A DNA stretch of 64,000 nucleotides from Martelella lutilitoris (GTDB lineage: Bacteria > Pseudomonadota > Alphaproteobacteria > Rhizobiales > Rhizobiaceae). The notes beneath the pieces were generated by a model. That model made no database searches. It worked only from the letters and a program-made list of their open reading frames with translations, and was not told where the DNA came from. The stretch lies in contig NZ_VCLB01000003.1 in assembly GCF_005924265.1 (NCBI RefSeq), positions 1-64,000 of the forward strand, read 5' to 3'. Below are positions 4,788 through 37,285 of the stretch, one piece after another. Every line of letters starts with the position of its first letter. The stretch's first letter is position 1. Position numbers and translations under genes: made by a program.

Positions 4788-4856
4788 ATATTTCCCCTTG
4801 ATTTCCCGGTTCATTCATATTCGATGATGATGAGGGTCGACCCCCGCTCCATTCGG

Positions 4857-5615: not shown

Positions 5616-5653
5616 TGTCACCCTTCCTCCTGGGCTGAGCTTGCTGGTCATGC

Positions 5654-5705
5654 GGTTGCAGGATGCAACCTATACGGTATTATACTCAGCCTACAAGCAA
5701 AACAA
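5654..5705 (-). promoter_or_regulatory. candidate promoter and leader hairpin of the sapC-like gene
   Basis: On the minus strand a TATAAT hexamer (5684-5679) lies 15 bp from TTGTTT (5705-5700), a shorter spacer than usual. Immediately downstream is a perfect inverted repeat GGTTGCA / TGCAACC (5654-5660 and 5664-5670, 3-nt loop), near the expected transcript start. It could act as an operator or an mRNA hairpin. Confidence 0.45.
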
Positions 5706-6060
5706 TCCTACATGTAGTAAAGATTTACCCGCTTTTTTTCTCACGGGTTGATGCATGGGACTCACTGTTGTGCGACCAAGACCGACAATCGGCGCACTGA
5801 CCATGAACTCCTTTTCAGAGGAAAATCAGGCAGGAGGGGTACCTTTTCGCGGAGAAATGTCGGCTTCTCCCAGCATAATGCTTTGTCTCGCTCCACCACT
5901 GCGGCCTCAATAGGCATTAACACCCAGTCATGGGCTGCGAGACATCCGAGTCCTACTTGTCCAGCCAGGTATTACTTTGACGAAAGATCGCGGACCTTGT
6001 CTGGAACACCGAGGCAGGAAGCCCGCAGGTACCGGCGTTTCCTGTACCGCCCGGAGAGCC
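5706..6060. other. intergenic stretch without a supported gene
   Basis: The gap between the sapC-like promoter and the end of the iac-associated operon holds a 10-bp palindrome CTACATGTAG at 5708-5717 and a short T-rich run near 5733. Small open frames across 5748-6119 lack ribosome-binding sites and resemble no family. A weak inverted pair GGTAC/GTACC near 6029-6049 might end the operon coming from the right. Confidence 0.4.
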
Positions 6061-7077
6061 TTACGACTTCGCCAGTACGGGATCCCGCCTCAGGCCCGCG
6101 CGGTCGACGGCCTGGATGAAGGCTTTCAGCCGGTCCTTGCGGTAGGCGTCGACATCCATCTCGCCATAGTCGTAGAAGCCCTGGCCGGTTTTCATACCGA
6201 TCCGGCCTTCTTCCATGTTGCGCTGAACGATCTCCGGCGCTTCGAAACGGTCGGTTTCAAGCGCGCCCTGCAGGTAGCGGCTGGCGTAATAGAGGATGTC
6301 GCCGCCGCCCCAGTCGACGAATTCCAGGAGGCCGAGCACGGCAAAGCGCAGGCCGAAGCCGTAAAGCACGGCCTTGTCCACATCCTCCGCGCTGGCGACG
6401 CCCTCTTCCACCAGTCGCGCCGCCTCATTCATCGCCAGCGCCTGAATGCGCGGCACGATATAGCCGGGCGAGGCACTGCAGACGACGGGCACCTTGCCGA
6501 TGTCTTCGAGAAAGCGCTTCAGCGTTTGCGTCGTCTCCGGTGCCGTTTCACCGGCAGGCGAGAGCTCGACCAGCGGCACGAGAAAGGCGGGGTTCAGCCA
6601 GTGCGCGTTCAGGAAACGGGCCTTATTCTCGGTCAGCGCGACGAGGTCGGATGACAGCATGGTCGACGTGGTCGAGGCGAGGATCGCTTCCTCGCCGGCG
6701 AAGCGGTCAAACAGCGCGAAGGCCTGTTCCTTGGCCGCGCGCACTTCCGGCACGGCCTCGAACACGATCGAAGCCTCGCAAAGGGCTGCGCCGGCATCCT
6801 CATGCGCCACCACGCTGATGCGCGCCATGATGGCGGGCACGGCGGTCTTGTCAAAGGCGCCAAGCTCGGCCATCAGCGTCAGGTCGCGCTCGATCTCGGC
6901 AATGGCGCCTTCTTCGAGTTCCGCGAAGGCCTCGCCGGAGCGCGTCTTGGCATCGATCAGGCGCACATGGTGGCCGTGATAGGCGACGCACTGGGCAATG
7001 CCTCGGCCCATCCGCCCTGCCCCGATGGAGGCCAATGTCATGGCTTGGGTCATGGCTTGGGTCATGGGCTTCGTCAT
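6061..7077 (-). CDS. 3-hydroxyacyl-CoA dehydrogenase family protein
   Basis: A 338-residue NAD-dependent dehydrogenase of the 3-hydroxyacyl-CoA / 3-hydroxyacid family. The N-terminal Rossmann motif IGAGRMGRGIA (around residue 19) is clear, followed by FEAVPE, the STTSTM segment and the HWLNPAFLVPLVEL region that corresponds to the catalytic His area. The C-terminal helical domain includes KTGQGFYDY. Length matches single-domain members such as 3-hydroxybutyryl-CoA dehydrogenase or L-gulonate dehydrogenase (lambda-crystallin type); the substrate cannot be read from sequence. Its ATG at 7077 overlaps the TGA of the upstream gene by one base, indicating translational coupling. The N-terminus carries a 12-bp tandem repeat giving several in-frame ATGs (7065, 7053, 7041). 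It is the last gene of the putative iac operon. Confidence 0.85.
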   Translation of the reverse strand: MTKPMTQAMTQAMTLASIGAGRMGRGIAQCVAYHGHHVRLIDAKTRSGEAFAELEEGAIAEIERDLTLMAELGAFDKTAVPAIMARISVVAHEDAGAALCEASIVFEAVPEVRAAKEQAFALFDRFAGEEAILASTTSTMLSSDLVALTENKARFLNAHWLNPAFLVPLVELSPAGETAPETTQTLKRFLEDIGKVPVVCSASPGYIVPRIQALAMNEAARLVEEGVASAEDVDKAVLYGFGLRFAVLGLLEFVDWGGGDILYYASRYLQGALETDRFEAPEIVQRNMEEGRIGMKTGQGFYDYGEMDVDAYRKDRLKAFIQAVDRAGLRRDPVLAKS

Positions 7078-8153
7078 CAAATCCCGTCCTTCAGCATGGT
7101 CTGCACATCGCCCACGGTCATGCCCGCAAGGCCGAGCCGTTCAATTGTTCGGCCATCGGCGCGGAAATCGTCGCCGGCAACCGCGCCGGCAACCGATAAC
7201 AGCCCGGCCGCGACCGGGCACGGCACGCCCGCCCATTCGCCGACGGAAACCAGAAAGGCAAGACCGAGCCCGGTATCTTCGCGCATATAGCGATGAGACT
7301 TAAGATCGAGGTGCTCATGCCAGTCGCCCGAGCCCACCAGCTTGTCATGGGCGAGATTGCCATACATCCAGTCGCTGGTCTCGTAGTGATCGGCAAGCGG
7401 AAAATGCGGCGCGCCGTAGCCGAGCGCCTCGCGGATCGCGATCCGCTCATTGTCGAGCGCGGTATGAACGCGGCGGATCGACGGCTGCGTACCCTCATTG
7501 TGGATGTCCCACTGATCGAAATGCTCGATCGGTCCGGCATTCATCAGGATCAGTGGCGGATGGATGATCGGCCCGGCATTCATCAGCGCGCCGGACAGCG
7601 CATCCTCGGACTTCTCGATGGCCCCGGGAAAGGCCGCGCCGATGACGGCGAGCGCACTCTCGGTGTTGCGCGCAGGGAAAACCCCGGTCGGCAGGCGCGA
7701 GGCGCGGGTGGTGATGCGCACTTCGGTTTCGCTCTGCTTGCGGGTCAGCCAGGGCAGCGTCCCGGTTTCGGCGATGGAGAAATCAGCGGTGCAGCCAGCA
7801 TCACGCATGATCTTCGCCATGATATAGGAGCCGAACGTGCCCGGCGGCAGATAGATCACCTGCCCGTCGCGCATGTGCGGGGCAAGCCTTGCCGCCAGAT
7901 CCTCCTGGGCGTTGGCGGGCGTCGGCGAAACGATCAGCTCGGCGCCGTCGAGCGCGGCTTCCAGATCATCGGTCGGCGCAATCGCAACCGGGCGCGTGCC
8001 GTTGAAGTCGGTGACCGTAATGCCGCCGGCCTCGGTGATTTCGGCAAAGCGCGCGCGGTCGCGCCGCCACCAGCGCACATCATGCCCCGCCTCGACAAAA
8101 TCGGCCACCGCGGCATATGAACCATTGCCGCCGCCCAGAACCGTGATCTTCAT
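7077..8153 (-). CDS. NAD/NADP octopine/nopaline dehydrogenase family protein
   Basis: A 358-residue two-domain dehydrogenase. It opens with the nucleotide-binding motif VLGGGNGSYAAVADF (residues 4-18). Further on are SPTPANAQEDLA, IAETGTLPW, and the His-rich NAGPIIHPPLILMNAG and EGYGAPHFPLADHY-like segments typical of the C-terminal domain of opine dehydrogenases. Members reductively condense amino acids with keto acids or catalyse the reverse oxidation. It is followed by the 3-hydroxyacyl-CoA dehydrogenase gene with a one-base overlap and lies 85 bp after iacG on the same strand, so co-transcription with the auxin genes is plausible. No iac locus I know of requires this enzyme; its substrate is unknown. 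Chromosomal opine-dehydrogenase-like genes are widespread, so a T-DNA origin is not implied. Confidence 0.82.
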   Translation of the reverse strand: MKITVLGGGNGSYAAVADFVEAGHDVRWWRRDRARFAEITEAGGITVTDFNGTRPVAIAPTDDLEAALDGAELIVSPTPANAQEDLAARLAPHMRDGQVIYLPPGTFGSYIMAKIMRDAGCTADFSIAETGTLPWLTRKQSETEVRITTRASRLPTGVFPARNTESALAVIGAAFPGAIEKSEDALSGALMNAGPIIHPPLILMNAGPIEHFDQWDIHNEGTQPSIRRVHTALDNERIAIREALGYGAPHFPLADHYETSDWMYGNLAHDKLVGSGDWHEHLDLKSHRYMREDTGLGLAFLVSVGEWAGVPCPVAAGLLSVAGAVAGDDFRADGRTIERLGLAGMTVGDVQTMLKDGI

Positions 8154-8238
8154 TTCGCATTGTTCCCTTGTTTTTGTTCAATAAAGTGGTTGGCTCCCGA
8201 TTTTTCCGGCGGGAACGCGATGCCTGCCGAAAGGCGAC

Positions 8239-8739
8239 CTAAACCTTCTCCGGCATGCGCGCCGTCAGCGGATGGAAGCGCCGGTCGAACCAGACAAGCG
8301 CCTCTGCCGGCTCTGCGCCCAGCCGGGTTGCCTCGACCTGGGCGTAAAAGACCGAATGGGTGCCGATCACCTTGCGCTCCACGATCTTGCAGTCAAAGGC
8401 GACCACGGCGCTTTCCAGCACCGGCGCGCCGGTCGCAAGCCGGATCCAGCTGTCGACGGCAAAACGGTCCTCGCTGCCCCGACTGGCAAAGGCGGTGGCC
8501 AGCGCCTCGTGGCGGCCGGCCAGAACATTGACGCAGAGCTTGCCATTGGCGTTGAACCGGTCATGCGAGCGGTTCTGCCGGTTGACGCAGACCAGAAGCG
8601 TCGGTGGCTGATCGGTGATCGAGCAGACGGCAGACGCCGTCATGCCGTGGCGGCCTTCCGGCCCGTCGGTCGTGACCAGATTGACCGCGGCCCCAAGCCG
8701 GCTCATGCCCTCGCGGAAAATCATCGCGGTGTCGTTCAT
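8239..8739 (-). CDS. iacG: flavin reductase, probable IacG
   Basis: A 166-residue flavin:NAD(P)H reductase of the HpaC/RutF-type family. It would supply reduced FMN or FAD to a two-component monooxygenase, most simply the IacA homologue in the same operon. Visible family features are FREGMSRLGAAVNLVTT at the N-terminus, GMTASAVCSITDQPPTLLVCVN and the FDCKI...GTHSVFYAQVEA C-terminal block. The ATG at 8739 is chosen because AAGGAG lies 7-8 nt upstream; a GTG at 8754 is also in frame. It follows the reductase gene by 15 bp. The position at the end of the H-A-C-D-E-F-G series matches iacG of auxin-degrading pseudomonads. Confidence 0.85.
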   Translation of the reverse strand: MNDTAMIFREGMSRLGAAVNLVTTDGPEGRHGMTASAVCSITDQPPTLLVCVNRQNRSHDRFNANGKLCVNVLAGRHEALATAFASRGSEDRFAVDSWIRLATGAPVLESAVVAFDCKIVERKVIGTHSVFYAQVEATRLGAEPAEALVWFDRRFHPLTARMPEKV

Positions 8740-8754
8740 GGTGGTCTCCTTCAC

Positions 8755-9714
8755 TCAGATATCGAGGACCAGCTTCTTGCCCTTGGCGCGCGAGCAGCAG
8801 AGCGCCATCTCGAAATTCTCCGCCTTTTCCTCGTCCGTCAGGAATTTGTCGCGATGATCGGCCTCGCCTTCCAGGATCTCGGTCATGCAGGTGCCGCAAA
8901 TGCCCTCTTCGCATTTGACCTCGACATCGACGCCGGCGCTCTTCAGCGCCTTGGCGATGGTGTCGTCCGGCCCGACGGTGACGGTGACGCCGGAGGCGCG
9001 CGCCTCGACCTCGAAGCTTTCGCCGGAAACATCGACATCGACGGTGAAATATTCGCGGTGAATGCTGTCGGCGGGAAAGCCGGCCTTTGCGGCAAGGCCG
9101 ATGATCCAGTCCATGAAGCCTTCCGGGCCGCAGACATAAAGATGCGTGCCCGCCTCATAGGCCGGAAAGTCCTCAGGCGACAGCGCCGTGCCGTCATCAT
9201 CATGGTGAAAATGAACATGGCCGGCAAAGGCTGCCGTCTCGATCACATCGGCAAAGGCGGTCACAGATTTCGAGCGGGTGCAGTAGTGGATCTCATATTC
9301 ACTACAACTGGCCTCCAGGGCATGCGCCATGGCGATCATCGGCGTGATGCCGATGCCGCCGCCAAAGAGGATCGAGCGTCTTGCACCATCCGCCAGCGGA
9401 AAGAGATTTGCCGGCGCATCCGAAACAAACACCGCACCGGGCCTTGCCTGCCTATGAATGGCGGCCGACCCGCCCCGGCTTGCCGCGTCCTTCAGAATGC
9501 CGAGCCGGTAACAACCGGTCTCCGATGGCGAACCACAGAGCGAGTACTGGCGATGAAACACCTTCTCGCCATCGCGAACCTCGATCGCAAGATGCGCTCC
9601 AGCCTCGAAGGATGGAAGCGGTTTGCCCTCGGCATCCTCCAGAACGAGCCGGATGATATCGCCCCGGTCATCGATCCGCTCGACGACCTTCAGGAAAAGC
9701 TTCTGGTCGGTCAT
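8755..9714 (-). CDS. iacF: ferredoxin-type oxygenase reductase, probable IacF
   Basis: A 319-residue reductase of the phthalate dioxygenase reductase / VanB class that passes electrons from NAD(P)H to the Rieske oxygenase. Domain order is a flavin-binding barrel (RQYSLCGSPSE near residue 55), an NAD domain (FGGGIGITPMIAMAH, then CGPEGFMDWI) and a C-terminal plant-type 2Fe-2S domain with Cys268-x4-Cys273-x2-Cys276-x29-Cys306. The start at 9714 follows the SDR stop by 17 bp and begins at MTDQKLFLKV; longer upstream readings only run through the SDR gene in another frame. Context beside the alpha and beta oxygenase genes supports IacF. Confidence 0.9.
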   Translation of the reverse strand: MTDQKLFLKVVERIDDRGDIIRLVLEDAEGKPLPSFEAGAHLAIEVRDGEKVFHRQYSLCGSPSETGCYRLGILKDAASRGGSAAIHRQARPGAVFVSDAPANLFPLADGARRSILFGGGIGITPMIAMAHALEASCSEYEIHYCTRSKSVTAFADVIETAAFAGHVHFHHDDDGTALSPEDFPAYEAGTHLYVCGPEGFMDWIIGLAAKAGFPADSIHREYFTVDVDVSGESFEVEARASGVTVTVGPDDTIAKALKSAGVDVEVKCEEGICGTCMTEILEGEADHRDKFLTDEEKAENFEMALCCSRAKGKKLVLDI

Positions 9715-9731
9715 GTTCCGTTCAATCCTTG

Positions 9732-10493
9732 TCAGCGGACATAGAGCCCGCCATTCACGTCCCAGCAGGCGCCGTTGACGAAGAAGGCCTTCGGCGAGGC
9801 CAGGAAGGCGGCCATCTCGCCGATGAAATCCGCATCGCCAAGCTTGCCGACGGGAATGTTCTTCAGGAACCCGGCAAGTGCCGCCTCCGGCACGATGTCG
9901 CGCACCATCGGCGTATCCATCGGCCCAGGCGAGATCGCGTTGACTGTGACCCCGAAGGGGGCGAGATCGCGGGCAAACACCTTGGTCAGCGTCAGGATCG
10001 CGCCCTTGGAGGCGGCATAATGCGCGCCCGTCGCCGTGCCGCCGTTCTGGCCCGCAAGCGAGGCCATATTGACGATCCGGCCATAGCCGCGTTCCTTGAA
10101 ATGCCGGCCAAAGACCTTGCACCCGGTAAAGGTGCCGCCGGCATTGACGGCCATGATCGCGTTGAAGGTTTCGGTGTCGATATCGAGTACCGGCTCGGCA
10201 CGGGTCACGGCGGCATTGTTGACCAGAACCTCGACGCTGCCCCAGCGGGCAACGCATTTTTCCAGGACATGCTCGAAATCCTCGGGCCGCGCGATGTCGA
10301 GCTTGGTCGTCAGAGCCGTTTCGGAGGCAAGGTCCAGTTCCTCGGCCAGCGCATCGCAGGCCTTCTCGTCGATATCGGCGAGGATCACCCGGTAGCCGGC
10401 CGCATGCAGCGCGCGGGCAATGGCGGCGCCGACGCCGCGGGCGGCACCGGTGACGACGGCCGTCTGGGTCTCTATCGGAAGCGGCGCCGGCAT
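9732..10493 (-). CDS. iacE: short-chain dehydrogenase, probable IacE
   Basis: A 253-residue classical SDR. TGAARGVG (residues 15-22) binds the cofactor, NNAA lies at 92, and the catalytic set is Ser145, Tyr159 and Lys163 (YAASK). Its ATG overlaps the TGA of the dioxygenase beta gene by one base. In characterised iac systems IacE works with IacA at the early indole-ring oxidation/reduction steps leading toward dioxindole-3-acetate. The assignment rests on operon position; the active site alone would fit many alcohol or ketone substrates. Confidence 0.85.
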   Translation of the reverse strand: MPAPLPIETQTAVVTGAARGVGAAIARALHAAGYRVILADIDEKACDALAEELDLASETALTTKLDIARPEDFEHVLEKCVARWGSVEVLVNNAAVTRAEPVLDIDTETFNAIMAVNAGGTFTGCKVFGRHFKERGYGRIVNMASLAGQNGGTATGAHYAASKGAILTLTKVFARDLAPFGVTVNAISPGPMDTPMVRDIVPEAALAGFLKNIPVGKLGDADFIGEMAAFLASPKAFFVNGACWDVNGGLYVR

Positions 10494-10990
10494 CAGAACA
10501 GATAGCTGATCGACGTCAGCACTCCCTCGGAATTGATCAGGCGAACGACCTTGTCGTGGATCAGCAACTGGCCGTCGCGGCGCACGAGATGATGCTCGAC
10601 ATCGGCAAGAAAAGTGCGCTGGCGGCCGAACTTGTCCTCGGTCAGATGCATGGCTGAGCGCACCTTCAGCGAGCCCGGCAACGTCTCGGTGACGACGAAG
10701 CGCGAGGAAAGGCGCACCGTGCGCGCCGCCGGCGTGGCCGAAATGGCGAAGCCGCCCTGCAGCCGCTCGACACGCATCTTCCGCATCTTGGCGTCATCGA
10801 AGACGATGTTGAGATTGTCGCGGAAATTCGTCGCGTCATGCTCGACCGGGATGACGTAGTGGCCATCCTCGGTCCAGAGCTTCAGCCAGGCGTCGTAGTC
10901 AGCGCGGTCGAGAATATCGGCCTCAAGCCAGATGAACTGCTGCGCTTCGGCAAGCGTGATCCCGGTCTCGGTGGTCATCATATCGCTCAT
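10493..10990 (-). CDS. iacD: Rieske dioxygenase beta subunit, probable IacD
   Basis: A 165-residue aromatic-ring-hydroxylating dioxygenase beta subunit with the NTF2/SnoaL-like fold. Typical features are FIWLEADILDRADYDAWLKLWTEDGHYVIP at the N-terminus and a C-terminal RDGQLLIHDKVVRLINSE strand set. The ATG at 10990 overlaps the stop of the alpha-subunit gene as ATGA, as expected for stoichiometric subunits; a start at 11011 would lie within the alpha gene. Beta subunits are structural and carry no metal. It pairs with the Rieske alpha subunit upstream and the reductase two genes downstream. Confidence 0.9.
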   Translation of the reverse strand: MSDMMTTETGITLAEAQQFIWLEADILDRADYDAWLKLWTEDGHYVIPVEHDATNFRDNLNIVFDDAKMRKMRVERLQGGFAISATPAARTVRLSSRFVVTETLPGSLKVRSAMHLTEDKFGRQRTFLADVEHHLVRRDGQLLIHDKVVRLINSEGVLTSISYLF

Positions 10991-12255
10991 CGGCTCATCA
11001 TCCTTTTCCACATGTTGTAGGCGGCGCGCATGCCGGTCTCGGAGCTCACGGTCCCGCGCGGCAGGCCGTTCGGCCCGTCCTTTTCCAGCCCCTTGTCGCG
11101 GTTGACCATGATGTCGAGTTCGGGACCGCCGGCGGTTCCGCGCTGGACGCGTTCCCAGACCTCTGCGTCATCCGGGCTGCCGAAACCCATCGGCCCCTGG
11201 AAATGCTCATGCAGGCGTAGGCGCATGCGGTTGGCCTCCTCCGGCCCGCCATCCATGCCGATGGCGATGTGGCGGATATGGGTCTCGTCGACGGAGACCG
11301 GCCGCATGATGCGGAAGAAGGAGAGCGAGCAGGCCGCATTGGGGAAGAGATTGAGGTTGAAGCCCGTGCCGCCGACCGCCTTGACGATACGGCGCACCTG
11401 CTCCTCGCTGTAGCGGTCGCGCAGGCTCTCGGCGAGCTCGGCAAAGCGGGCGGGGATTTCCCAGCCATTGTCCTCGTCGAGGTCGATCAGCGACGGCATC
11501 ATCACCATCACCGAATGGCCATTGCCGAGGTCTTCCACGAAGCCGTCGCCATCGAGGAAGGAAAACAGGTCCTCCGTCTCGGAATCGAGCGACTGCAGAA
11601 AGGGCTTGTGTACCACCGGGAAGTGATAGGCGTCGGTGGTGTTTTCGAGCTGGATCTTCCAGTTGCCAGGAAACGAGAACTGGTGCTCGCCCAGAACCTT
11701 TACCGGAAAGCCGCCGCCCTGCTTCATGAACAGGTCGATCCACGCTTTGGCATTGCCGAGGAAGTCCTCGATCGGCTCGACCTCGTCATTGAGCGAGGCG
11801 AAGATCATGCCGTTATAGATGCCGACCTTGAGCTTCGGAAGGCCGAATTCCTTCTTGTCGAAGCTCTCGTGATAACCCTCGGCATAGGGCAGGCCGCGCA
11901 GCGAGCCGTCGAGCGCGTAACCCCAGCCGTGATAGGGGCACTGGAAGGAACTGGTCTTGCCCTTGTTGTGCTCGCACACGGTTGCGGCGCGGTGGCGGCA
12001 GCGGTTGATCAGGACATGAATCTCGTTCTTCCGGTCGCGCGAGATGATGACGGGCTGACGGCCGACCCATGAGCGCTTGAAACTGCCCTTTTCCGGCACT
12101 TCCGAGGTATGGCCGACCCACACCCAGGTCTTGCCGAAAATCTCGTCCATCTCGATTTCGAAGAGGTCGGGGTCAGTGTACATCTGCGTGGCAACGCGAT
12201 CGTCGCGCACAAGATCGGCATAGGCGGTCTTGGTCTTTGTTACTGCGACATCCAT
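10987..12255 (-). CDS. iacC: Rieske dioxygenase alpha subunit, probable IacC
   Basis: A 422-residue catalytic subunit of a ring-hydroxylating dioxygenase. The Rieske 2Fe-2S cluster ligands are Cys86-x-His88 and Cys106-x2-His109. The mononuclear iron site shows Asp208-x2-His211-x4-His216 (DAYHFPVVH). The ATG at 12255 has AGGAG 8 nt upstream. In iac pathways this oxygenase acts on an oxidised indole-acetate intermediate on the way to catechol. It is followed by its beta subunit with an ATGA overlap and, farther on, by the SDR and reductase genes. Confidence 0.9.
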   Translation of the reverse strand: MDVAVTKTKTAYADLVRDDRVATQMYTDPDLFEIEMDEIFGKTWVWVGHTSEVPEKGSFKRSWVGRQPVIISRDRKNEIHVLINRCRHRAATVCEHNKGKTSSFQCPYHGWGYALDGSLRGLPYAEGYHESFDKKEFGLPKLKVGIYNGMIFASLNDEVEPIEDFLGNAKAWIDLFMKQGGGFPVKVLGEHQFSFPGNWKIQLENTTDAYHFPVVHKPFLQSLDSETEDLFSFLDGDGFVEDLGNGHSVMVMMPSLIDLDEDNGWEIPARFAELAESLRDRYSEEQVRRIVKAVGGTGFNLNLFPNAACSLSFFRIMRPVSVDETHIRHIAIGMDGGPEEANRMRLRLHEHFQGPMGFGSPDDAEVWERVQRGTAGGPELDIMVNRDKGLEKDGPNGLPRGTVSSETGMRAAYNMWKRMMSR

Positions 12256-12301
12256 CTTTCTGTCTCCTGTCACAAAAGGCTTCTGGCGAGCGGGGCGACG
12301 C

Positions 12302-13450
12302 TCACGGATAGCCGGGCGGGGTCTGTTGCTCGAACATCGCGGCGCCCGCCGATGTCCATGTTCCAAGGCCGAGAAAGGCGTGCTGGGCAACGGCATTGGC
12401 ATCGATCAGGCAACGGCCGAGAACGTGACCGCGGGCCAGCGCCCGCGTGCCGGCCATGCGGAAGGCCATATGCGCGACGGCTGCCCCTTCGCTTGCGGCA
12501 TGGCTTGCCGCCATGCGCAATTCGATCACGCCCGCCTTATCGACGGCATCGCCGCTGACCACGGTCTCCCATGCCTTCTCGGTCGCCTCGTAGAAATAGG
12601 CGCGCGCGCTTTTCAGCCGCGCTTCCGCCTTGCCATATTCGGCCTGGATATAGGCGCGGGCGCCAAGCGTCGGCGCGCCGGTGATCGAGGGCGTCTCGAG
12701 CGCCTCGGCGCGGATCCAGTCGAGCGCCTCGCGCGCCGCGCCGAGGCCGACAACGGCCAGAACCTGCGCGGCGAGCGCCATGGGCGGATAGCGGAAGGCC
12801 GGCTCGTCGCGCTTGGCGGGCGAACCGCGCACGAAGGTCCATTCCTCGGGCACGATCACGTCCTCGGCGACGATGTCGTGGCTGCCGGTCGCCGTCAGGC
12901 CGAGCGTGTCCCAGCTATGCTTGATCGAAACGTCCTCGCGCTTCATCACCGCCATGCGCGGCAGGCCGCCCGTCCCCTTGTCGTCGACCTTGATGCCGGC
13001 GCCGATCAGGGACGCGCCCATGCAGCCGGAACAGTAGGGCCAGCGGCCCTTGACGGAAAAACCGCCCGGAACACGTTCAGCCGGCTGCGGCGGAAAGATC
13101 GCGCCGGCAAAGACGGTGTCGGGATCCTTGCCATAGATCGCCGCAAAGGTTTCCGGCGGAAGCGCCGCAAGATAGGTCGACGACACGCCGAAGCTTGCCA
13201 CCCAGCCGGTCGAGGCATCGGCGGTCGAGAGCGTCTCGATCAGTTCGAGAAAGGCGGCCGGCGTGACTTCGTCGCCGCCGAGCGATTTCGGCACGAAGGC
13301 GCGATAGGCGCCGACAGCCTGCAGCTTCTCGACCATGTCGAGCGGCACATAGGTGAGTTTTTCAAACTCGGCGCGCCGGGTCCTTATTTCGTCGAGAACC
13401 GATGTGAGGGTCACCGCAGGCGCGGCGGCGGCCTGGCTTCTAGTGTCCAT
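12302..13450 (-). CDS. iacA: acyl-CoA-dehydrogenase-fold flavin monooxygenase, probable IacA
   Basis: A 382-residue protein with the acyl-CoA dehydrogenase fold of group D flavin monooxygenases (HsaA/DszC-like), not a true fatty acyl-CoA dehydrogenase. The LSTADASTGWVASF segment near residue 85, the GRWPYCSG region and the C-terminal helical domain fit this class. In auxin degraders IacA, fed by the IacG reductase, carries out the first oxidation of the indole ring. The ATG at 13450 with GGAG 8 nt upstream is preferred; it overlaps the amidase stop by 11 bp. A TTG at 13468 is also in frame. The cognate flavin reductase is five genes downstream. Confidence 0.86.
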   Translation of the reverse strand: MDTRSQAAAAPAVTLTSVLDEIRTRRAEFEKLTYVPLDMVEKLQAVGAYRAFVPKSLGGDEVTPAAFLELIETLSTADASTGWVASFGVSSTYLAALPPETFAAIYGKDPDTVFAGAIFPPQPAERVPGGFSVKGRWPYCSGCMGASLIGAGIKVDDKGTGGLPRMAVMKREDVSIKHSWDTLGLTATGSHDIVAEDVIVPEEWTFVRGSPAKRDEPAFRYPPMALAAQVLAVVGLGAAREALDWIRAEALETPSITGAPTLGARAYIQAEYGKAEARLKSARAYFYEATEKAWETVVSGDAVDKAGVIELRMAASHAASEGAAVAHMAFRMAGTRALARGHVLGRCLIDANAVAQHAFLGLGTWTSAGAAMFEQQTPPGYP

Positions 13451-14612
13451 TGCGTTTGTCTCCGGCAAATGCTTCGGGATTGATGTCGATTGTGGCTGCT
13501 AGGCCCTCGGCGATGGCGCAGAGTGCCTCATCCCCGCCGATCCGGCCAACAAGCTGGACGCCCGCAGGCAGGCCGTCTTCTGTGAGGATGGGAATGGTGA
13601 TCGCCGGGTGGCCGCTCAGGTTGAAGGGCCGCACCAGCGCGGTCAGCGGAATGAGCGCCCGCATGTCGACGGCATCGGCAAGAAGCGGCGGCACGACAGG
13701 CATGGTCGGCAGAACAAGGGCGTCGCAGTCTTCCAGTGCGTGGTCGACCTCGCTCCGGAACATTAGGCGGATCTCTTCCGCACGGCTGATGTCGGCATCC
13801 AACCGGCCGGCCTCGGCGGCAAGAATGCGCGCGCGCACCGTTTCATCCATGCCGTTGTCTTCATGTGCGAGCGCGGCAAAGGCGTCCGCCGCCTCGGCAT
13901 TGATGATGACAAGGCCGGCCTCGTAGGCCGCTTCGAAATGCTCAAGCGTGATTTCCGCAGCGCGGACACCGGCAAGCGCCCGTTCAAAGGCAGCAACGAT
14001 TTGCGGTTCGGCAGACACGGCAATCCTGCCGAGGCGGAATTCAGTGGCGGGCGGACGCGCGGCAAAGCTTGGGTCCATCAGGCTCATGGCCTTTGTCAGC
14101 ATTTTGGCCGTGGCGGCAAAGGGGCCGATGCAATCCAGCGAACTTTCCGCCGGAATGGCGCCGGCGCGGGAGATGCGGCCATAGGTCGGCTTCATGCCGA
14201 AAACGCCGCAACAGCAGGCCGGCATGCGCACCGAGCCGCCCGTATCCGTGCCCACCGCGAAATCGCAGCGCCCGGCCGCCACCAGAGCCGCCGAACCGGA
14301 AGACGAGCCGCCGGGGATCCTGTCCGGCCATTTCGCGTTGACGGGCGTGCCGAGAAAGGCGTTGACGCCGGTGACGCCGAAGGCCAGTTCGTGCATGTTT
14401 GCCGTACCGATGATGTGGCAGCCCCTAGCGAGAAGAGCATCGACCACGGCGGCGTTCTCATCTGCGACGGGGCCTTCCGCGAGGGCGCGCGACCCGCAGC
14501 GGGTAACGATTCCCTTGATCGCCAGGCATTCCTTGATCGCCACTTCCGGGCCATCGCCACCCACAAAGAGAGGGCGCGACAACGCGGCATCGGCCGGTTG
14601 AGCTGAGTGCAT
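13440..14612 (-). CDS. iacH: amidase-signature hydrolase, probable IacH
   Basis: A 390-residue amidase-signature enzyme. A candidate catalytic Lys27 (VAIKE), the Gly/Ser-rich GGSSSGSAAL loop (101-110) and the nucleophile Ser127 in DTGGSVRM are present, so the Ser-cisSer-Lys triad is intact. The protein is about 390 residues, somewhat shorter than GatA-type amidases. In iac loci IacH is the first gene; an amide- or lactam-opening step has been proposed. It is first in the H-A-C-D-E-F-G operon here and has its own promoter overlapping a perfect 16-bp palindrome. An indole-acetamide hydrolase role is an alternative that sequence alone cannot exclude. Confidence 0.83.
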   Translation of the reverse strand: MHSAQPADAALSRPLFVGGDGPEVAIKECLAIKGIVTRCGSRALAEGPVADENAAVVDALLARGCHIIGTANMHELAFGVTGVNAFLGTPVNAKWPDRIPGGSSSGSAALVAAGRCDFAVGTDTGGSVRMPACCCGVFGMKPTYGRISRAGAIPAESSLDCIGPFAATAKMLTKAMSLMDPSFAARPPATEFRLGRIAVSAEPQIVAAFERALAGVRAAEITLEHFEAAYEAGLVIINAEAADAFAALAHEDNGMDETVRARILAAEAGRLDADISRAEEIRLMFRSEVDHALEDCDALVLPTMPVVPPLLADAVDMRALIPLTALVRPFNLSGHPAITIPILTEDGLPAGVQLVGRIGGDEALCAIAEGLAATIDINPEAFAGDKRNGH

Positions 14613-14671
14613 CTTATTCCTGTTCCCTTGTCGCGAACCGGGCCTTCGGCCTTTTCTTGTCGTTCGCTATT

Positions 14672-14706
14672 ACGGTAATATTACCGTTATTTTTCACATA
14701 AATCAA
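14672..14706 (-). promoter_or_regulatory. iacH operon promoter with overlapping palindromic operator
   Basis: A perfect 16-bp palindrome ACGGTAATATTACCGT (14672-14687) covers a -10-like TAATAT (14683-14678). It sits 17 bp downstream of a -35-like TTGATT (14706-14701) on the minus strand, about 60 bp before iacH. The left part of this element recurs upstream of iacB (17996-18023). Such an overlap is typical for repression, here probably by the MarR protein encoded at 18665-19117. Confidence 0.65.
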
Positions 14707-14761
14707 GAATGAACCCGTTGCTTTCGTTTTTTCCTGGGCAGACTTCCCGGTTGCTCCCGCC

Positions 14762-16051
14762 CTACATCGAGTAAGGCACCAGCAGAACGAGCGCGGGAAA
14801 GGCGATGAGCAGCAGCACCCTGATGACATCCATTAGCAGAAACGGCCCCAGCCCGCGGAAGATCGTCGCCAGATTGACGTCGCGCACCACGGCCCGGAGC
14901 ACAAAGGCGTTCAGCCCGACCGGCGGCGTGATGTAGCTGATCTCGGTGACGACGACGACGAAAATGCCGAACCAGATCAGATCAATCCCGTTGGCCGCGA
15001 CGACCGGATAGAACATCGGCACGGTCAGCGTGATCATCGCCATGCCTTCCAGAAGGCAGCCAAGCACCAGATAGATCGCCATGATCACCAGCAGGATGCT
15101 GATCCTCGAATCGCCGAAGACCGTCAGCAGCGACTGGATATCGGCCGACATGCCCGAGAGATTGACGTAATTTGTAAAGGTCAGCGCCCCGAACAGGATG
15201 AAGAACATCATCGCGCTGGTCTTGGCACTTTCAAACAGCGACATCAGCACGGCCTGGACGGAGAACCGCCGTTTGGCCAGGACCAGAAGAAAGGCGCCAA
15301 AGGCCCCCATCGCCGCGCTTTCGGTCGGGGTGAAGACGCCGAAATAGATGCCGCCCATGACGAAGATGAACAGCGCGCCCGCGCCGAGCGTCCCCTTCAT
15401 CGCCGCAAACCGTTTTGCAAGCGGCAGACGATCCATCACGGGGAGCTTCTGGCCTGAGATCATCAGCGACAGCACCACCGCAAGACAGTAGCCGATGATG
15501 CCGATAATGCCGGGCACGATCCCCGCCAGGAACAATTTGCCGATATCGCTCTGCGTCATGATGCCGTAAAGCACCAGAATGATCGACGGCGGTATCAGAA
15601 TCCCCAGCGTGCCGCCGGCGGCGATCGAGGCCGTGGACAGCGCATCAGAATAGCCGAAGCGGCGCATCGACGGCATGGAGATTTTCGCCATGGTGGCAGC
15701 GGTTGCCAGCGAGGAACCGCAGACGGAGGAGAAGCCGCCGCTCGCAACAACGGTGGCGATCGCAAGCCCGCCGCGGCGATGCCGCATCCAGGCATGGGCG
15801 GCCTCGTACATTTCCTGGGCCACGCCGGAGAGCACAACGAAATTGCCCATCATCAGGAACAGCGGCACGATCGAAAGCGAATAGCTCAGCGAATTGTCGA
15901 AGAAGGTCTGGCCAAGCAGCGACAATGCCGGCTGCCAGCCGATGATCGAGAGGGTTCCGACAAAGCCGACCAGCGTCAGCGAGAAGGCGATCGGCAACCC
16001 CGAAAGCAGCATCACGAGAAGGATAAAGACGCCAACAGGCCAGCTGATCAT
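14762..16051 (-). CDS. TRAP transporter large permease (DctM type)
   Basis: A 429-residue membrane protein with about 12 hydrophobic segments. The family motifs GSSLATAATMAKISMPSMRRFGY and GGTLGILIPPSIILVLYGI are present, together with a C-terminal TPPVGLNAFVL motif. It forms the transport channel together with DctQ. The ATG at 16051 overlaps the dctQ stop as ATGA. Longer upstream readings are shadows of dctQ. The operon lies directly upstream of iacH and is co-oriented with it, which suggests uptake of indole-3-acetate or a related acid. Confidence 0.92.
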   Translation of the reverse strand: MISWPVGVFILLVMLLSGLPIAFSLTLVGFVGTLSIIGWQPALSLLGQTFFDNSLSYSLSIVPLFLMMGNFVVLSGVAQEMYEAAHAWMRHRRGGLAIATVVASGGFSSVCGSSLATAATMAKISMPSMRRFGYSDALSTASIAAGGTLGILIPPSIILVLYGIMTQSDIGKLFLAGIVPGIIGIIGYCLAVVLSLMISGQKLPVMDRLPLAKRFAAMKGTLGAGALFIFVMGGIYFGVFTPTESAAMGAFGAFLLVLAKRRFSVQAVLMSLFESAKTSAMMFFILFGALTFTNYVNLSGMSADIQSLLTVFGDSRISILLVIMAIYLVLGCLLEGMAMITLTVPMFYPVVAANGIDLIWFGIFVVVVTEISYITPPVGLNAFVLRAVVRDVNLATIFRGLGPFLLMDVIRVLLLIAFPALVLLVPYSM

Positions 16052-16563
16052 AATCCCGCCTCTCCGGTCTTGGCATCGCCACCGGTGATGCCGTTGACGA
16101 CCGTGATCACGACGGAAACCGCGACGGCCACGGAGGTCAGATAGGCGAGCGGGGCAACCGGGATCTTCAGGGTGTTGGTGCTCTGGGCATAGCCTGCCAG
16201 ATTGCCGGCATGGCCCCACAGCCGCCAGGCGATCAAACCGAGCACAATCGCGGAGAGCAGGCTCACGGCGATCTTGCGCAGCGGCTCCAATACAGGCGGG
16301 ACGCGGGAAAGCAGGATGTCGACGCGGATATGGGCATCATCCAGACAGACGGCGGGCAGACCCAGGAAGATGACGGCGCACAGCAACAGTTCCGTCAGTT
16401 CGGTCGCGCCCATCAGCGGCGCATTCAGAATATAGCGGCCGATCACGTCGACAACGGTGATCATCATGATCGTGACCAGAAGCAGCGCGCAGACGACCGC
16501 CAGCGAGAGGCGGGCGTATTGGCGCGCGCCCGGTTTTCCATGACCTTCGACGACCCGGTTCAT
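16048..16563 (-). CDS. TRAP transporter small permease (DctQ type)
   Basis: A 171-residue inner-membrane protein with four predicted membrane helices, around residues 19-40, 55-75, 95-115 and 140-160. The DVIGRYILNAPLMGATELTELLL and LDDAHIRVDIL motifs are typical of DctQ. Its ATG overlaps the dctP stop by one base (TAATG). It is the accessory subunit that links the binding protein to DctM. Confidence 0.9.
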   Translation of the reverse strand: MNRVVEGHGKPGARQYARLSLAVVCALLLVTIMMITVVDVIGRYILNAPLMGATELTELLLCAVIFLGLPAVCLDDAHIRVDILLSRVPPVLEPLRKIAVSLLSAIVLGLIAWRLWGHAGNLAGYAQSTNTLKIPVAPLAYLTSVAVAVSVVITVVNGITGGDAKTGEAGL

Positions 16564-17594
16564 TATTTGGCCGCTGCTGCGATCTCGGCCTGCATCTCGG
16601 CAAAGGCCGCCTTGGCGTCAATGCCGGTCGCCTCAGAAATATCGGCGAGCTTCTTCTCGATCAGCGGATCAAGCCGTGAATGGAGGAACTCCATCTGCTC
16701 GGCGGTTGCCGCGCTGACGTCGATCTTGCCCTTCATCGCCTCGCGGGCCTGGTCGTCGACGCGTTCCCACATCTCGCCGGCGCGCGTGATCAGGTGCTCA
16801 CCGGTGACGTTTTCGATCGCGGCCTGATCCTCAGGCGAAAGACGATCCCACTTGGCCTTGTTCATGACGATGAACATCGAAGTGCTGTACAGGCCGCCGG
16901 GAACGGTCATGCCCTTGTGCATCAGCGGCAGAAGCCCGAAGGACTCGACCGATTCGAACGGGAAGAACAGGCCGTCGGCAACGCCCTGCGACAGGAGTTC
17001 GTAGGCCTTGGAGGCCGGGCCTTCGATCGGAACCCCGCCGACGGCGACGGCAACATCATGGGCCATGCCGCCGCCGACGCGGATCTTCATGCCGTCGAAA
17101 GCGTCGCTTGCCGTCAGCGGCTTCTCCTTGGAGAAGGCTTCGCCCGGGCCATGGGTGAAGACGGCCAGAACCTTGACCCGTTCATACTCGTTCGCCTTGC
17201 TCAGCGTGTCGTTGAAGACCTTCCAATAGGCCAGCGAGCGGGCCACCGTATCATCGCCGAGAAACGGCATCTCGGCGAGTTCGGAGGTGCGGAACCGGCC
17301 GGCGGTATAGTTCTGGACGCCCATGACAATGTCGGCAACGCCGTTTGCAGCAAGGTCATAATGCGCGCCGGGCGGCCCGAGCGGCGCAGGCAGAACCTTG
17401 ACAGTGACATCGCCATCCGTGGCCGTCTCGATCTCCTTGACCATCGGCATCAGCACGTCGCTGACCAGCGGATGCGCCGGAGGCAGCCAGACCGACATGG
17501 TCAGCGTCTCGGCGGCAAGGGCCGCAGACCCGGCCAGCGCCACGGCCGCGACCACGGCCCCACGACAGAATTTCAAAAGCGTTTTCACCTTCAT
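16563..17594 (-). CDS. TRAP transporter solute-binding protein (DctP type)
   Basis: A 343-residue periplasmic binding protein with a Sec signal peptide ending near ALAAE (about residue 28). The DctP fold is recognisable from PLGPPGAHYDLAANGVADIVMG, the GGMAHDVAVAVGGVPI segment with the usual glycine-rich region, and GVADGLFFPFESVESFGL. The ATG at 17594 sits against an AGGGGA; a GTG at 17588 would have better spacing and is a possible alternative start. It is first gene of the TRAP operon. The ligand is unknown; position beside the iac genes argues for an aromatic acid such as auxin. Confidence 0.9.
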   Translation of the reverse strand: MKVKTLLKFCRGAVVAAVALAGSAALAAETLTMSVWLPPAHPLVSDVLMPMVKEIETATDGDVTVKVLPAPLGPPGAHYDLAANGVADIVMGVQNYTAGRFRTSELAEMPFLGDDTVARSLAYWKVFNDTLSKANEYERVKVLAVFTHGPGEAFSKEKPLTASDAFDGMKIRVGGGMAHDVAVAVGGVPIEGPASKAYELLSQGVADGLFFPFESVESFGLLPLMHKGMTVPGGLYSTSMFIVMNKAKWDRLSPEDQAAIENVTGEHLITRAGEMWERVDDQAREAMKGKIDVSAATAEQMEFLHSRLDPLIEKKLADISEATGIDAKAAFAEMQAEIAAAAK

Positions 17595-18241
17595 TCCCCT
17601 TCTCGTTTGTCACGATCGTCATTCATTTCTTCGTCCGCCCGGCAAACCGGACGCATTTCAAGAGCGAAACCTGGTTCATCCGCTCTCATTCGGGCACAGC
17701 TTCACCGTCCCGCCCCAGCAATGCTGTGGTCGGTGAAGCCGGATCAGGTCTCCGGATCTTTCATCTGCGACTGTCTGTTGCGGACGTCTTTCGGCAAGAG
17801 TAGTCGAAGTCAGCGCGCACTGCCGGACAAGGCTCGCCTGTTCGCATCTACGAAGACGCAAGGCATCCTCATCCGCAAGCGCCGCCTGCGTCCGCTCCGG
17901 TGCCGTCATCCGGCCCTGTCGTTCAATGTCTGGAAGTGACGTCTCTCACGCCGGGAGGCAATTCCTTCTGCTGTTGCGATGCTGTTCCCGTGTTTTTGAT
18001 TTAGATGAAAATTACCGTAAAATTGCAGGTTGTCAACTCTGCCAATGCAAGCATTCCGGCTTTCGCCTCAAATTTATGATATTTTTCACTTTATTTTTCA
18101 TGTTTTTTCAGCCACCTTTCGCAAACGAACCGGCCATCAGCGACGTCGCGGGCAGCCTCGAAAGGGCTTTCGAAAGAGTCTCTCAGACCTTCGCGCGCCA
18201 CGGTCGAAGGCCGTTCGGATCAACAGAAATGGGGAACTGAA
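17595..18241. other. 647-bp divergent regulatory region between dctP and iacB
   Basis: This region separates the minus-strand TRAP operon from plus-strand iacB. It contains the iacB promoter/operator element (17996-18037) and an A/T-rich block at 18060-18120. A 54-codon frame (18077-18240) with a hydrophobic N-terminus has no clear ribosome-binding site, so I do not call it. I see no RNA gene. The iacB leader would be about 210 nt, unusually long. Confidence 0.5.
17996..18037 (+). promoter_or_regulatory. iacB promoter with iac-type half operator
   Basis: TTGATT (17996-18001) lies 16 bp before TAAAAT (18018-18023). The block TTGATTTA-NN-TGAAAA is the same as in the iacH promoter, and ATTACCGT (18011-18018) repeats one half of the iacH palindrome. 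A short palindrome GTTGTCAAC (18029-18037) falls at the expected transcript start. Confidence 0.6.
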
Positions 18242-18601
18242 ATGAGTGAACAAAAGCCACTGAGAACGCTGTTTTGCATTGCAGTGCATCAAAACTTCTT
18301 CGACCTGCCCTTCAGCGATATCGGCCTGGTCTGGAAGGGTTTTTCGGCGTTCCTGCGCGGCGTCGCCGATCTTCCCGGCGTCACCGTGCTCGGCACGATG
18401 GATGACGACGAGACCATGGTCGGCACTTCGCCGGACGGCTTTCCGTGGACCTGCTATATCCTCGCCGACTGCCCGGATCGCGACAGCGTCAAGGCCGCCT
18501 GCAACCTGTTCCGTACGATCGAGGTCGGCGAGTACCGGTTGTGGCGCTACATGCGCATCGAGGCCCGGATGGGGCGCGCGCTGGAAATTCCCGCGCTTTG
18601 A
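18242..18601 (+). CDS. iacB: small conserved protein, probable IacB
   Basis: A 119-residue soluble protein with no signal peptide, membrane segment or catalytic motif I can name. The sequence suggests a small alpha/beta fold (RTLFCIAVHQNFFDL at the start, GVTVLGTMDDDETMVG in the middle, RLWRYMRIEARMGRALEI at the end). The iacB assignment rests on length, on being next to the MarR and iacI genes of a complete iac set, and on a promoter element shared with iacH. Function of IacB is not firmly established; a role with the dioxygenase-stage intermediates has been suggested. A GGGGAA site lies upstream of the ATG. Confidence 0.62.
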   Translation: MSEQKPLRTLFCIAVHQNFFDLPFSDIGLVWKGFSAFLRGVADLPGVTVLGTMDDDETMVGTSPDGFPWTCYILADCPDRDSVKAACNLFRTIEVGEYRLWRYMRIEARMGRALEIPAL

Positions 18602-18625
18602 CGAAAAGCCAGAAGCATTCCGGCC

Positions 18626-18645
18626 GGCTTGTCGTTTGACAAGCC
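18626..18645. terminator. bidirectional hairpin between iacB and iacR
   Basis: Perfect 8-bp stem GGCTTGTC / GACAAGCC with a GTTT loop in the 63-bp gap between the converging iacB and iacR genes. There is no long U-run on either side. Position supports a shared terminator. Confidence 0.6.
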
Positions 18646-18664
18646 CGCTGGAGCGCCGCGCGGC

Positions 18665-19117
18665 TCAGGCAAGACGCTCGAAAATTTCTTCAAGAACCTG
18701 ATTGACGCGGCGAAGGTCTTCCTCGCTGATATCCGTGAAGGTTCTTTCAAACACGCGGCTTGCCGTCTTCGCGGCCTTCAACCCGGCCTCGGCCCCAGCT
18801 TCCGTCAGGCTGACCTCGGTCACCCGGGCATCGCTGGGGGAGACGCGGGTCTTGACCAGACCCTCGGCGGCCATGCGCTGGACAATCTTGGTCGTCGTGT
18901 TGAGCTTGAGAATGCAGAATTCGGCGATCTCCGAAACGCTGAGGTTTCCATGCTCGCGCAACGAGGACAGGACGCGCCAGCGCGAGACATCGAGCCCCTG
19001 CTGCTTCAGCAGGCGGTCCATTTCGAACGTGTAGCGCGCGCTGACACGGGTAATCCAGTAAAACGGCCATTCCGCCTTCGATTGGAATGGAAGTGTCGGC
19101 TTATCTGAGTTTTCCAT
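18665..19117 (-). CDS. iacR: MarR-family regulator, probable IacR
   Basis: A 150-residue MarR protein. The winged helix-turn-helix spans roughly residues 45-110: VLSSLREHGNLSVSEIAEF, then LNTTTKIVQRMAAEGLVKTRVSPSDARVTEVSLTEAG. Flanking helices would form the dimer interface. MarR proteins bind small phenolic or aromatic ligands, and iac loci commonly carry a MarR repressor relieved by auxin. It is divergent from iacI (111 bp apart) and convergent with iacB. Likely targets are the palindromic elements at 14672-14706 and 17996-18037 and the inverted repeat at 19164-19177. Confidence 0.85.
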   Translation of the reverse strand: MENSDKPTLPFQSKAEWPFYWITRVSARYTFEMDRLLKQQGLDVSRWRVLSSLREHGNLSVSEIAEFCILKLNTTTKIVQRMAAEGLVKTRVSPSDARVTEVSLTEAGAEAGLKAAKTASRVFERTFTDISEEDLRRVNQVLEEIFERLA

Positions 19118-19163
19118 CTGGCTATCTTCAGTCAGTTGAGCGCTGCGGATCGGGAGGTTCGCA

Positions 19164-19177
19164 CTGCATAATTGCAG
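19164..19177. promoter_or_regulatory. inverted repeat between iacR and iacI
   Basis: CTGCA-N4-TGCAG in the 110-bp divergent region between the MarR gene and iacI. It is placed to control iacI, iacR or both. It does not match the ATTACCGT element of the iacH and iacB promoters, so it may be a separate site or chance. Confidence 0.35.
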
Positions 19178-19227
19178 CGGTGGCAGAAGGCAAACAGCTT
19201 ATGAACGGAAATGACAGGAAAGCAACG

Positions 19228-19794
19228 ATGAACACCCCGACGGATGCGGACAGGCTGGCCCTGCTGGCGGCCCGCGTCGAAAGGCTGGAGGCGGAAGCCG
19301 AAATCCGCCGCCTGCAGGCCCGCTACATGTTCCTGTGCGACACGCCCTGCCCTGAATATGCCGTCGCAAGCGACGCCGAACGCATCGACGCCATCCTCGC
19401 CCTTTACGCCGAAGATGCGATCTGGGAAGGCGTCGGAGAATATTATGACGGCCAGTTCGGCCGCTGTACCGGAAAGGACGAAATCCGCGCTCATTTCGAA
19501 AAATTCTGGAGCCCGGAGCGCAGACCGAAACTGGTGCTCAATGTCCACTATCTGACATCGGAGCAGATCCATGTGGACGGCGACCGTGCCGAAGGCCAGT
19601 GGGTCCACTGTCAGCCATGGCTCTACGCCGACGGCAGCGCGTTGTTGCGCTCCAGCCGGCTGAACAACGCCTTCGTCAGGATCGATGGCGCGTGGAAGAT
19701 CAGCAGGACCCGCACCGAAAACGTGTTCATCGCGCCGCTGAAAGACAATTTCGCCAGCGATTTCCCGCTGAACTCGGTCCTGATGCGCCCATAG
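19228..19794 (+). CDS. iacI: SnoaL-like protein, probable IacI
   Basis: A 188-residue protein with the NTF2/SnoaL-like cone fold: a leading helix (AARVERLEAEAEIRRLQARYMFLCD), then YAEDAIWEGVGEYYDGQFGRCTGKDEIRAHF and a C-terminal strand block including GAWKISRTRTENVF. The ATG at 19228 is preceded by AGGAAA with 8-nt spacing and is preferred to the ATG at 19201. SnoaL-like proteins of this type act as isomerases, hydrolases or dehydratases on aromatic intermediates; IacI has no settled reaction. Together with iacB and iacR it forms the upstream arm of the auxin locus, separated from the H-A-C-D-E-F-G operon by the TRAP genes. Confidence 0.72.
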   Translation: MNTPTDADRLALLAARVERLEAEAEIRRLQARYMFLCDTPCPEYAVASDAERIDAILALYAEDAIWEGVGEYYDGQFGRCTGKDEIRAHFEKFWSPERRPKLVLNVHYLTSEQIHVDGDRAEGQWVHCQPWLYADGSALLRSSRLNNAFVRIDGAWKISRTRTENVFIAPLKDNFASDFPLNSVLMRP

Positions 19795-30069: not shown

Positions 30070-30129
30070 TTCCCAGTCCTTTCCGGCATTTCTGAAATTC
30101 TTGTGCAAGGTGCAAATTCTGGTTCCGGC

Positions 30130-31659: not shown

Positions 31660-31716
31660 GGCCAGCCCCTTGTCAACCGTCGGTCCTGCATGCTGTGGCT
31701 CCCACCCCCCTCGTTG

Positions 31717-33309: not shown

Positions 33310-33346
33310 TCAAAATCCCCAAATCTTATGGGGGAATGTTCCATCG

Positions 33347-33384: not shown

Positions 33385-33422
33385 ACTTAGGATTTTCTGA
33401 ATTCAATCAGCCGTGCGGGCCC

Positions 33423-34793: not shown

Positions 34794-34831
34794 GCTGTTC
34801 TCCACTGTTCCGCTTTTTGGTCATAACGTTG

Positions 34832-35762: not shown

Positions 35763-35777
35763 GGGTGCCGCGCTGCC

Positions 35778-37282: not shown

Positions 37283-37285
37283 TCC

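Follow-up and report, generated by a model that had tools for sequence, protein, structure and literature searches.

The iac genes for degradation of the auxin indole-3-acetic acid (IAA) are the described system closest to the locus treated here. In Pseudomonas putida 1290 they follow the order iacABCDEFGRHI (PMC11373566), which places iacI outside the core there. The minimal set for IAA degradation is given as iacA, B, C, D, E, F and I (PMC10329457), adjacent iacC and iacD genes are used as a criterion for iac loci (PMC9613470), and characterised iac strains are described as carrying catABC near iac, with the steps from dioxindole-3-acetic acid (DOAA) to catechol stated as unfilled (PMC7225977). 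For Paraburkholderia, two carriers of the major facilitator superfamily, IacT1 and IacT2, have been named and are listed as transporting DOAA (PMC11676955). Here, we analyse an iac-like locus that includes genes for a tripartite ATP-independent periplasmic (TRAP) importer, found in Martelella lutilitoris within a stretch of 64,000 nucleotides (positions 1 to 64,000 of contig NZ_VCLB01000003.1, assembly GCF_005924265.1), referred to below as the window.

The proposal that we regard as likely, taken as a whole, combines IAA import, a catechol route, an IacR operator, a shared lineage and a replaced iacI. The DctPQM importer would take up IAA; IacC, IacD and IacF, together with IacH, IacI and perhaps IacB, would convert DOAA to catechol; and catechol would be cleaved through a meta-cleavage operon whose genes are present on another contig of the host genome and whose link to the pathway we infer. 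Binding of IAA would release IacR from an operator before iacH and perhaps from sites between dctP and iacB, as conserved sites suggest. The locus would belong to a lineage common to Roseobacter, Donghicola, Thioclava and a Neorhizobium cluster, its iacI having been replaced by a version from another clade and its iacB standing beside iacR as in the Neorhizobium cluster.

Window proteins were identified from open reading frames with Pfam and NCBIfam profile scans and compared with a Pseudomonas reference locus (L066) that has the P. putida gene order and whose IacR shares 99.3% of 137 residues with PDB entry 7kua, the IacR of P. putida 1290 (PMC9613470). All ten functions, IacA to IacI and IacR, that a first-pass annotation made from the DNA alone had claimed are matched by their L066 counterparts at identities of 37–64%, and the seven genes of the minimal set are among them. 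Read from its right-hand end, the locus begins with iacI (about 19201–19794, plus strand; SnoaL-like, PF13577, 37% identity to L066), iacR (18665–19117, minus strand; MarR-family regulator, 47%) and iacB (18242–18601, plus strand; small conserved protein, 60%). All further genes lie on the minus strand: dctP (16563–17594), dctQ (16048–16563) and dctM (14762–16051) of the importer, then iacH (13440–14612; amidase, PF01425, 50%), iacA (12302–13468; flavin monooxygenase of acyl-CoA-dehydrogenase fold, PF08028, 51%), iacC (10987–12255; Rieske oxygenase alpha subunit, PF00355/PF00848, 64%), iacD (10493–11011, start not fixed; Rieske oxygenase beta subunit, PF00866, 41%), iacE (9732–10493; short-chain dehydrogenase, PF13561, 51%), iacF (8755–9714; ferredoxin/NAD oxidoreductase, PF00111, 51%) and iacG (8239–8754; flavin reductase, PF01613, 51%), and finally an octopine/opine-dehydrogenase-like gene (ODH) and a 3-hydroxyacyl-CoA-dehydrogenase-like gene (HCDH). 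These coordinates bear out the core order H-A-C-D-E-F-G without B and I, with iacC and iacD adjacent and neither B nor I in the 46 bp between iacA and iacC (with the starts chosen here). They also agree with the earlier placement of iacB and iacI beside the MarR gene but not with their flanking the importer, an arrangement that the coordinates rule out: it is iacR that lies between B and I, and the TRAP genes (14762–17594) sit wholly beyond iacB, between it and the core. The annotation had further placed both genes inside the Pseudomonas operon; in the P. putida order cited above, iacI is not part of the core.

The assignment to iac is well supported by sequence comparison. In a quick tree of 96 rows, four of them outside Rieske oxygenases, the window IacC is nested in a set of 92 iac rows apart from those four, so that the grouping with other aromatic pathways which the annotation had named as counting against its reading was not found for IacC. 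The trees of IacA and IacH took in proteins of iac and iac-like clusters only and were complemented by plasmid searches. Among the best 60 of 286 plasmid records for IacC, identity is 54–74% in the first 30 and does not exceed 36% in the following 30, a drop that puts the iac match beyond chance; 26 of the 28 plasmid records matching IacB are also among those first 30, the other two being Neorhizobium SOG26 and Psychrobacter urativorans. By score the MarR protein falls in the IacR group: 7kua reaches 125 bits, 7l19 106 and 7l1i 69, while no other MarR protein exceeds 48 and the IadR structures of Variovorax (7kfo) give 46.

A perfect palindrome of 16 bases, ACGGTAATATTACCGT, lies before iacH at 14672–14687 and is probably the IacR operator, judging from its conservation in related loci. 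It is the sole match with up to three mismatches in the 64 kb, where 100 shuffled sequences gave a mean of 0.03 matches and only two had at least one. In a survey of the 26 other loci of the 28-row IacC clade, taking the 420 bases before the first aligned iacH base, 17 such matches were found in 10,920 bp, distributed over 12 of the 26 loci, as against four in 517,355 bp elsewhere, of which one is close to iacI in L030 and another falls between iacG and dctP in L074. Base-shuffled versions of the iacH upstream regions gave a mean of 0.05 matches and a maximum of one. A matrix built from the 17 sites of the relatives, which were themselves picked by likeness to the window palindrome, ranks the 16-mers at 14672 (28.9 bits), 18003 (17.4 bits) and 18088 (11.9 bits) highest in the window. 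The latter two, at 18003–18018 and 18088–18103, are weaker operator-like sites in the divergent region between dctP and iacB (17595–18241), for which no similar DNA was found in plasmids; the gap between iacR and iacI holds no high-scoring site.

The P, Q and M subunits (PF03480, PF04290 and PF06808) occur together in the window, as in a DctP-type TRAP importer. Recurrence was assessed in 91 loci with an IacC more than 50% identical, leaving out the window and including the copy of the locus in M. radicis (L023); these loci are not independent of each other, since many come from Acinetobacter or Pseudomonas. A DctP of at least 50% identity lies near iac in ten of them, one being the M. radicis copy, and one of 40–50% in four more. 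A looser relative (41–43%) stands between iacF and a distant iacG in two Pseudomonas and two Marinobacterium loci. In plasmids, the four of 35 DctP records with at least 54% identity all adjoin iac genes, the next record having 43%. The notion that the importer is unusual for iac loci is thus ruled out, and that it should be peculiar to this one is not supported; as both the importer and a divergent iacI are found in other public iac loci, neither is unique here. From this linkage, IAA may be the transported substrate, and the iac-linked TRAP subfamily is probably an auxin importer, with DctP as its probable auxin-binding part. The nearest solved DctP is 4p56 (259 bits), which we take to have been solved with mandelate; 4nap and 4pgn/4pgp score 68, the latter pair having presumably been solved with indole pyruvate and indole acetate.

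The IacI proteins group in two clades separated by a branch with 100% support, one of 30 rows including the window and one of 58 rows, and no locus with both types was seen on inspection of the compared loci. The type present in the window is encoded opposite to iacC in 19 of the 91 loci and on its strand in 11; the other type shares the iacC strand in 57 and is opposite in one, with no IacI seen in three. The window IacC belongs to a five-row clade (99%) with M. radicis and with the Thioclava, Roseobacter and Donghicola loci (L009, L021 and L022), and these three hold the other IacI type inside A-B-I-C. Since the loci nearest by IacC carry an IacI of another clade, a simple move of iacI is not supported, and substitution by a version from another clade is the better reading; the discordance is given by L009 and L022 too and not just by L021 with its long branch.

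In contrast to iacI, iacB has possibly moved out of the core, or else its adjacency to iacR is older. It directly follows iacA in 69 of the 91 loci, lies elsewhere in two (L016 and L023) and was not seen in 20, a figure that includes stretches truncated at contig ends and incomplete clusters. Outside Martelella, Neorhizobium SOG26 (L177) has the nearest A, B, E, G and R, its IacB being 88% identical, and the nearest H and D come from L021 and the nearest F from Sagittula (L013); for IacB, Neorhizobium and G064 come first, followed by L022 and L021. As in the window, iacR and iacB are convergent neighbours in L177, whereas they stand apart in G064. Two sources for the locus, one of A, B, E, G and R and one of C, D and H, were considered and dropped: C, D and H are missing from L177 and offer no comparison there, and the smallest starred set of the IacA tree that reaches beyond Martelella has five rows, so that one lineage would explain both groups and IacI alone is discordant.

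The Neorhizobium cluster is a partial one, with R, B, A, E and G at 12896–16407 of L177, the other five iac genes lacking from the 29 kb read, and thiolase-like and ABC-transporter-like frames nearby on inspection by eye. A second (L191, from G064) holds E, B, G, A and R at 9839–13600 and likewise lacks C, D, F, H and I over 20 kb, with an E of only 46% identity, and a plasmid of Psychrobacter urativorans (L178, 12001–13153) has iacB with an iacE-like gene and no other iac genes in 24 kb. Such clusters, in which IacB accompanies A, E and G or E alone, would fit an early role of IacB, though three clusters make a thin sample. IacB has no Pfam match; its structure, modelled from 44 sequences with a predicted local distance difference test score (pLDDT) of 92, is a predicted ferredoxin-like alpha/beta fold with the order strand-helix-strand-strand-helix-strand, and a fold search with the model returned only weak ferredoxin-like matches (best E-value 9e-4, TM-score about 0.4–0.5), SnoaB, YgiN and ActVA-Orf6 among them. 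In the literature, IacB is discussed jointly with IacI as regards the step that follows DOAA, no activity being reported in Escherichia coli (PMC7225977). Among the loci in which no iacB was seen are ten from Acinetobacter (L046, L060, L062, L077, L080, L081, L083, L085, L086 and L142), nine of which, all except L060, have the ODH-HCDH pair; L075 and L099, also from Acinetobacter, show no iacB either and hold fewer iac genes.

The block spanning the locus was probably exchanged as a unit. In a blastn comparison of the window with L023, the M. radicis DSM 28101 locus, the sole long match covers 6073–19794 with 96.1% identity over 13,724 positions, the other matches being three short ones of 60–309 positions elsewhere. 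Its edges are the iacI stop codon and a point 12 bases inside the HCDH gene, and this 13.7 kb block lies at different places in the two genomes with unrelated flanks; it is the high identity within and the unrelated flanks without that point to exchange. In the window the left flank (4176–5732) matches Martelella genomes G585 and G590 at 83%, and the right flank, from 19829 on, matches Martelella G592 at about 87%. IacC is present in three of 13 Martelella genomes, in four of 199 sampled genomes of the family (E < 1e-180) and in two of 385 genomes of a class sample (E up to 1e-100), the window's own genome included each time. Silent-site identity between the window genome and M. radicis is 0.89–0.93 for six block genes and 0.869 for rpoB, the host gene compared for this pair; other host genes were compared with the stand-in genomes G585 (rpoB 0.869, SapC 0.68, IalB 0.71) and G592 (rpoB 0.788, ArgE 0.70, PotD 0.78). 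These figures favour, without proving it, the view that the block was exchanged once the species had split. Among the named genes beside the edges, no integrase or insertion sequence was seen, although no search aimed at such elements was made.

At the far end of the block, the ODH gene (7077–8153, minus strand; PF02317, PDB 1bg6 with E = 4e-36) and the HCDH gene (6061–7080, minus strand; PF02737/PF00725, NF006125 with 470 bits at a cut-off of 427) lie within the annotated interval 6061–19794 and had gone unmentioned by the first-pass annotation. ODH occurs with HCDH near iac in 15 of the 91 loci. Across the 199 sampled family genomes, ODH (E ≤ 1e-60) was found in 15, a strong IacC accompanying it only in the window's own. 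In ten of the 14 others (L129–L138) the ODH neighbourhood was inspected; all ten contained C- and D-like genes belonging to a different Rieske oxygenase, and eight an F-like gene as well. In Paracoccus saliphilus, too, the pair adjoins a non-iac Rieske oxygenase. Next to the pair, L131 has an identified CoA ligase and thiolase, and both are annotated in Paracoccus; a TRAP importer of another type follows the pair in L129–L133, L136, L137 and L139. An iac-specific pair is ruled out by these non-iac neighbourhoods: ODH-HCDH would be accessory and also occurs without iac. In a single literature search we found no published description of the catabolic cluster in which the pair accompanies a non-iac Rieske oxygenase (L129–L138 and L139).

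With regard to the end of the pathway, the host genome appears able to use catechol through meta-cleavage genes, located at 9116–15520 of L175 on contig C18, a contig other than that of the block. The catechol 2,3-dioxygenase scores 406 bits (cut-off 320), with a second relative under the cut-off. Behind it follow a 2-hydroxymuconic semialdehyde dehydrogenase (874 bits, cut-off 693), a hydratase-like protein, an acetaldehyde dehydrogenase, a 4-hydroxy-2-oxovalerate aldolase and a decarboxylase-like protein, of which the acetaldehyde dehydrogenase and the aldolase are over their cut-offs. PF00775 is found in the host genome at two places only, next to each other, which are pcaH and pcaG by reading of the frames, so that no catA was seen.

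Several observations weigh against the proposal. The PF00775 search of the host genome did not reveal the catA that characterised iac strains have near iac, and two of the six meta-cleavage proteins, the hydratase-like and the decarboxylase-like one, are under their cut-offs. No close palindrome precedes iacH in 14 of the 26 related loci, among them the six of the Halomonas group (L024–L026, L028, L029 and L040) and the three nearest by IacC (L009, L021 and L022), in which the best site has four mismatches. The window IacI is only 37% identical to the Pseudomonas type, the weakest match of the ten. The trees were made by a quick method with a simple model, and that of IacI carries long-branch warnings, with the L021 IacI among the long rows. 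The exchange figures are modest, PotD being about as alike to G592 (0.780) as rpoB is (0.788), and an empty site for the block was not found. Finally, since the nearest DctP structure is the presumably mandelate-binding 4p56, another aryl acid could be the substrate of the importer.

This last point leads to a reading in which another indole or aryl acid is the true substrate, set by the importer and the ODH-HCDH pair, and IAA is degraded on the side. In its favour, besides 4p56 and the occurrence of the pair beside another Rieske oxygenase without iac, the Caballeronia IacA and IacE accept indole propionic and indole butyric acids (PMC7225977). Yet all ten iac genes are kept, including iacB and iacI, the regulator is nearest to an IacR shown to bind IAA (PMC9613470), and the importer accompanies nine iac loci that lack ODH-HCDH, which leaves this reading unlikely. 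It would be very improbable indeed that an iad-like locus, or another Rieske-oxygenase pathway, has been misread as iac: a Rieske oxygenase with a MarR regulator is common to iad loci as well (PMC9613470), but the MarR protein of the window resembles IacR much more closely than IadR, and homologues of IacA, IacB and IacI, given as absent from Variovorax hotspot 33 (PMC10329457), are present here.

A rearrangement without any replacement, in which an ancestral H-A-B-I-C-D-E-F-G order lost B and I by a local move to beside iacR, would agree with the present closeness of the two genes on the same strand and with the A-B-I-C order of the loci nearest by IacC. For iacB, a move within the lineage fits the place of the L022 and L021 proteins directly after those of Neorhizobium and G064. 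The IacI of the window, however, belongs to another clade than that of those same loci, which is better read as a replacement, and R and B are convergent neighbours in the Neorhizobium cluster too, though apart in G064; a plain rearrangement therefore seems rather improbable to us. A further idea, speculative and on balance doubtful, is that iac is modular, with an early set of A, E and G plus B and R, which does exist without C, D, F, H and I in the stretches read of the Neorhizobium-type clusters, and a late set of C, D, F, H and I plus a TRAP importer dedicated to auxin, two sets that could be joined or separated; interchangeable IacI versions would then be swapped in, IacB would act early and ODH-HCDH would add a step or a substrate.

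Elsewhere in the window, a large autotransporter with passenger repeats lies left of the block (116–3745), and further genes of aromatic-type oxidation are found at 28801–39866, comprising an HpaB-like hydroxylase (30133–31659), a glucose-methanol-choline (GMC) oxidoreductase (31720–33309) and a flavin-dependent (FAD) monooxygenase (38556–39866). In the Pseudomonas reference locus, an inverted partial iacC-D-F copy precedes the iac operon, perhaps as an assembly artefact.

If the proposal holds, a testable auxin importer and an IacR operator would be named for mostly alphaproteobacterial iac loci, an auxin-degrading block would be shown to move whole between bacteria, and the partial clusters that combine IacB with IacA and IacE, together with the two IacI types, would serve as comparative handles on the steps from DOAA to catechol. 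A literature search judged by titles and the first part of abstracts, with supplements and most subscription journals lying outside it, turned up no publication on the block, on TRAP importers of iac loci or on the operator.

Compared with known systems, the locus shares with iac of P. putida 1290, for which L066 serves as proxy, the ten gene families, the MarR regulator and the core C-D-E-F-G, and differs from it in gene order, in the clade of IacI and in the TRAP and ODH-HCDH genes, none of which were seen in the 16.3 kb of L066. The M. radicis block is alike in genes, order and, at 96.1%, in sequence, and differs in its neighbours. The Thioclava, Roseobacter and Donghicola loci have the nearest IacC outside Martelella and the iac-linked importer, but a core-type IacI within A-B-I-C and no ODH-HCDH seen, whereas those of Martelella AD-3, Sagittula, Celeribacter persicus and Thalassovita (L012, L013, L035 and L074) share the importer, the IacI clade and an iacI divergent from iacH and differ in having iacB between A and C. 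Neorhizobium SOG26 and G064 hold the nearest A, B, G and R outside Martelella, SOG26 also the nearest E, and are set apart by the five genes absent from the stretches read and, in G064, by the separation of R and B. The iac cluster of Marinomonas likewise combines iac genes with extra transport and dehydrogenase genes, although there a branched-chain-type ATP-binding cassette transporter, a class II aldolase and other extras take the place of TRAP and ODH-HCDH (PMC11373566). Taken together, the pathway was already known, and what the Martelella locus adds to it is the conserved palindrome before iacH, as a probable operator, and the iac-linked TRAP subfamily, as a probable auxin importer.

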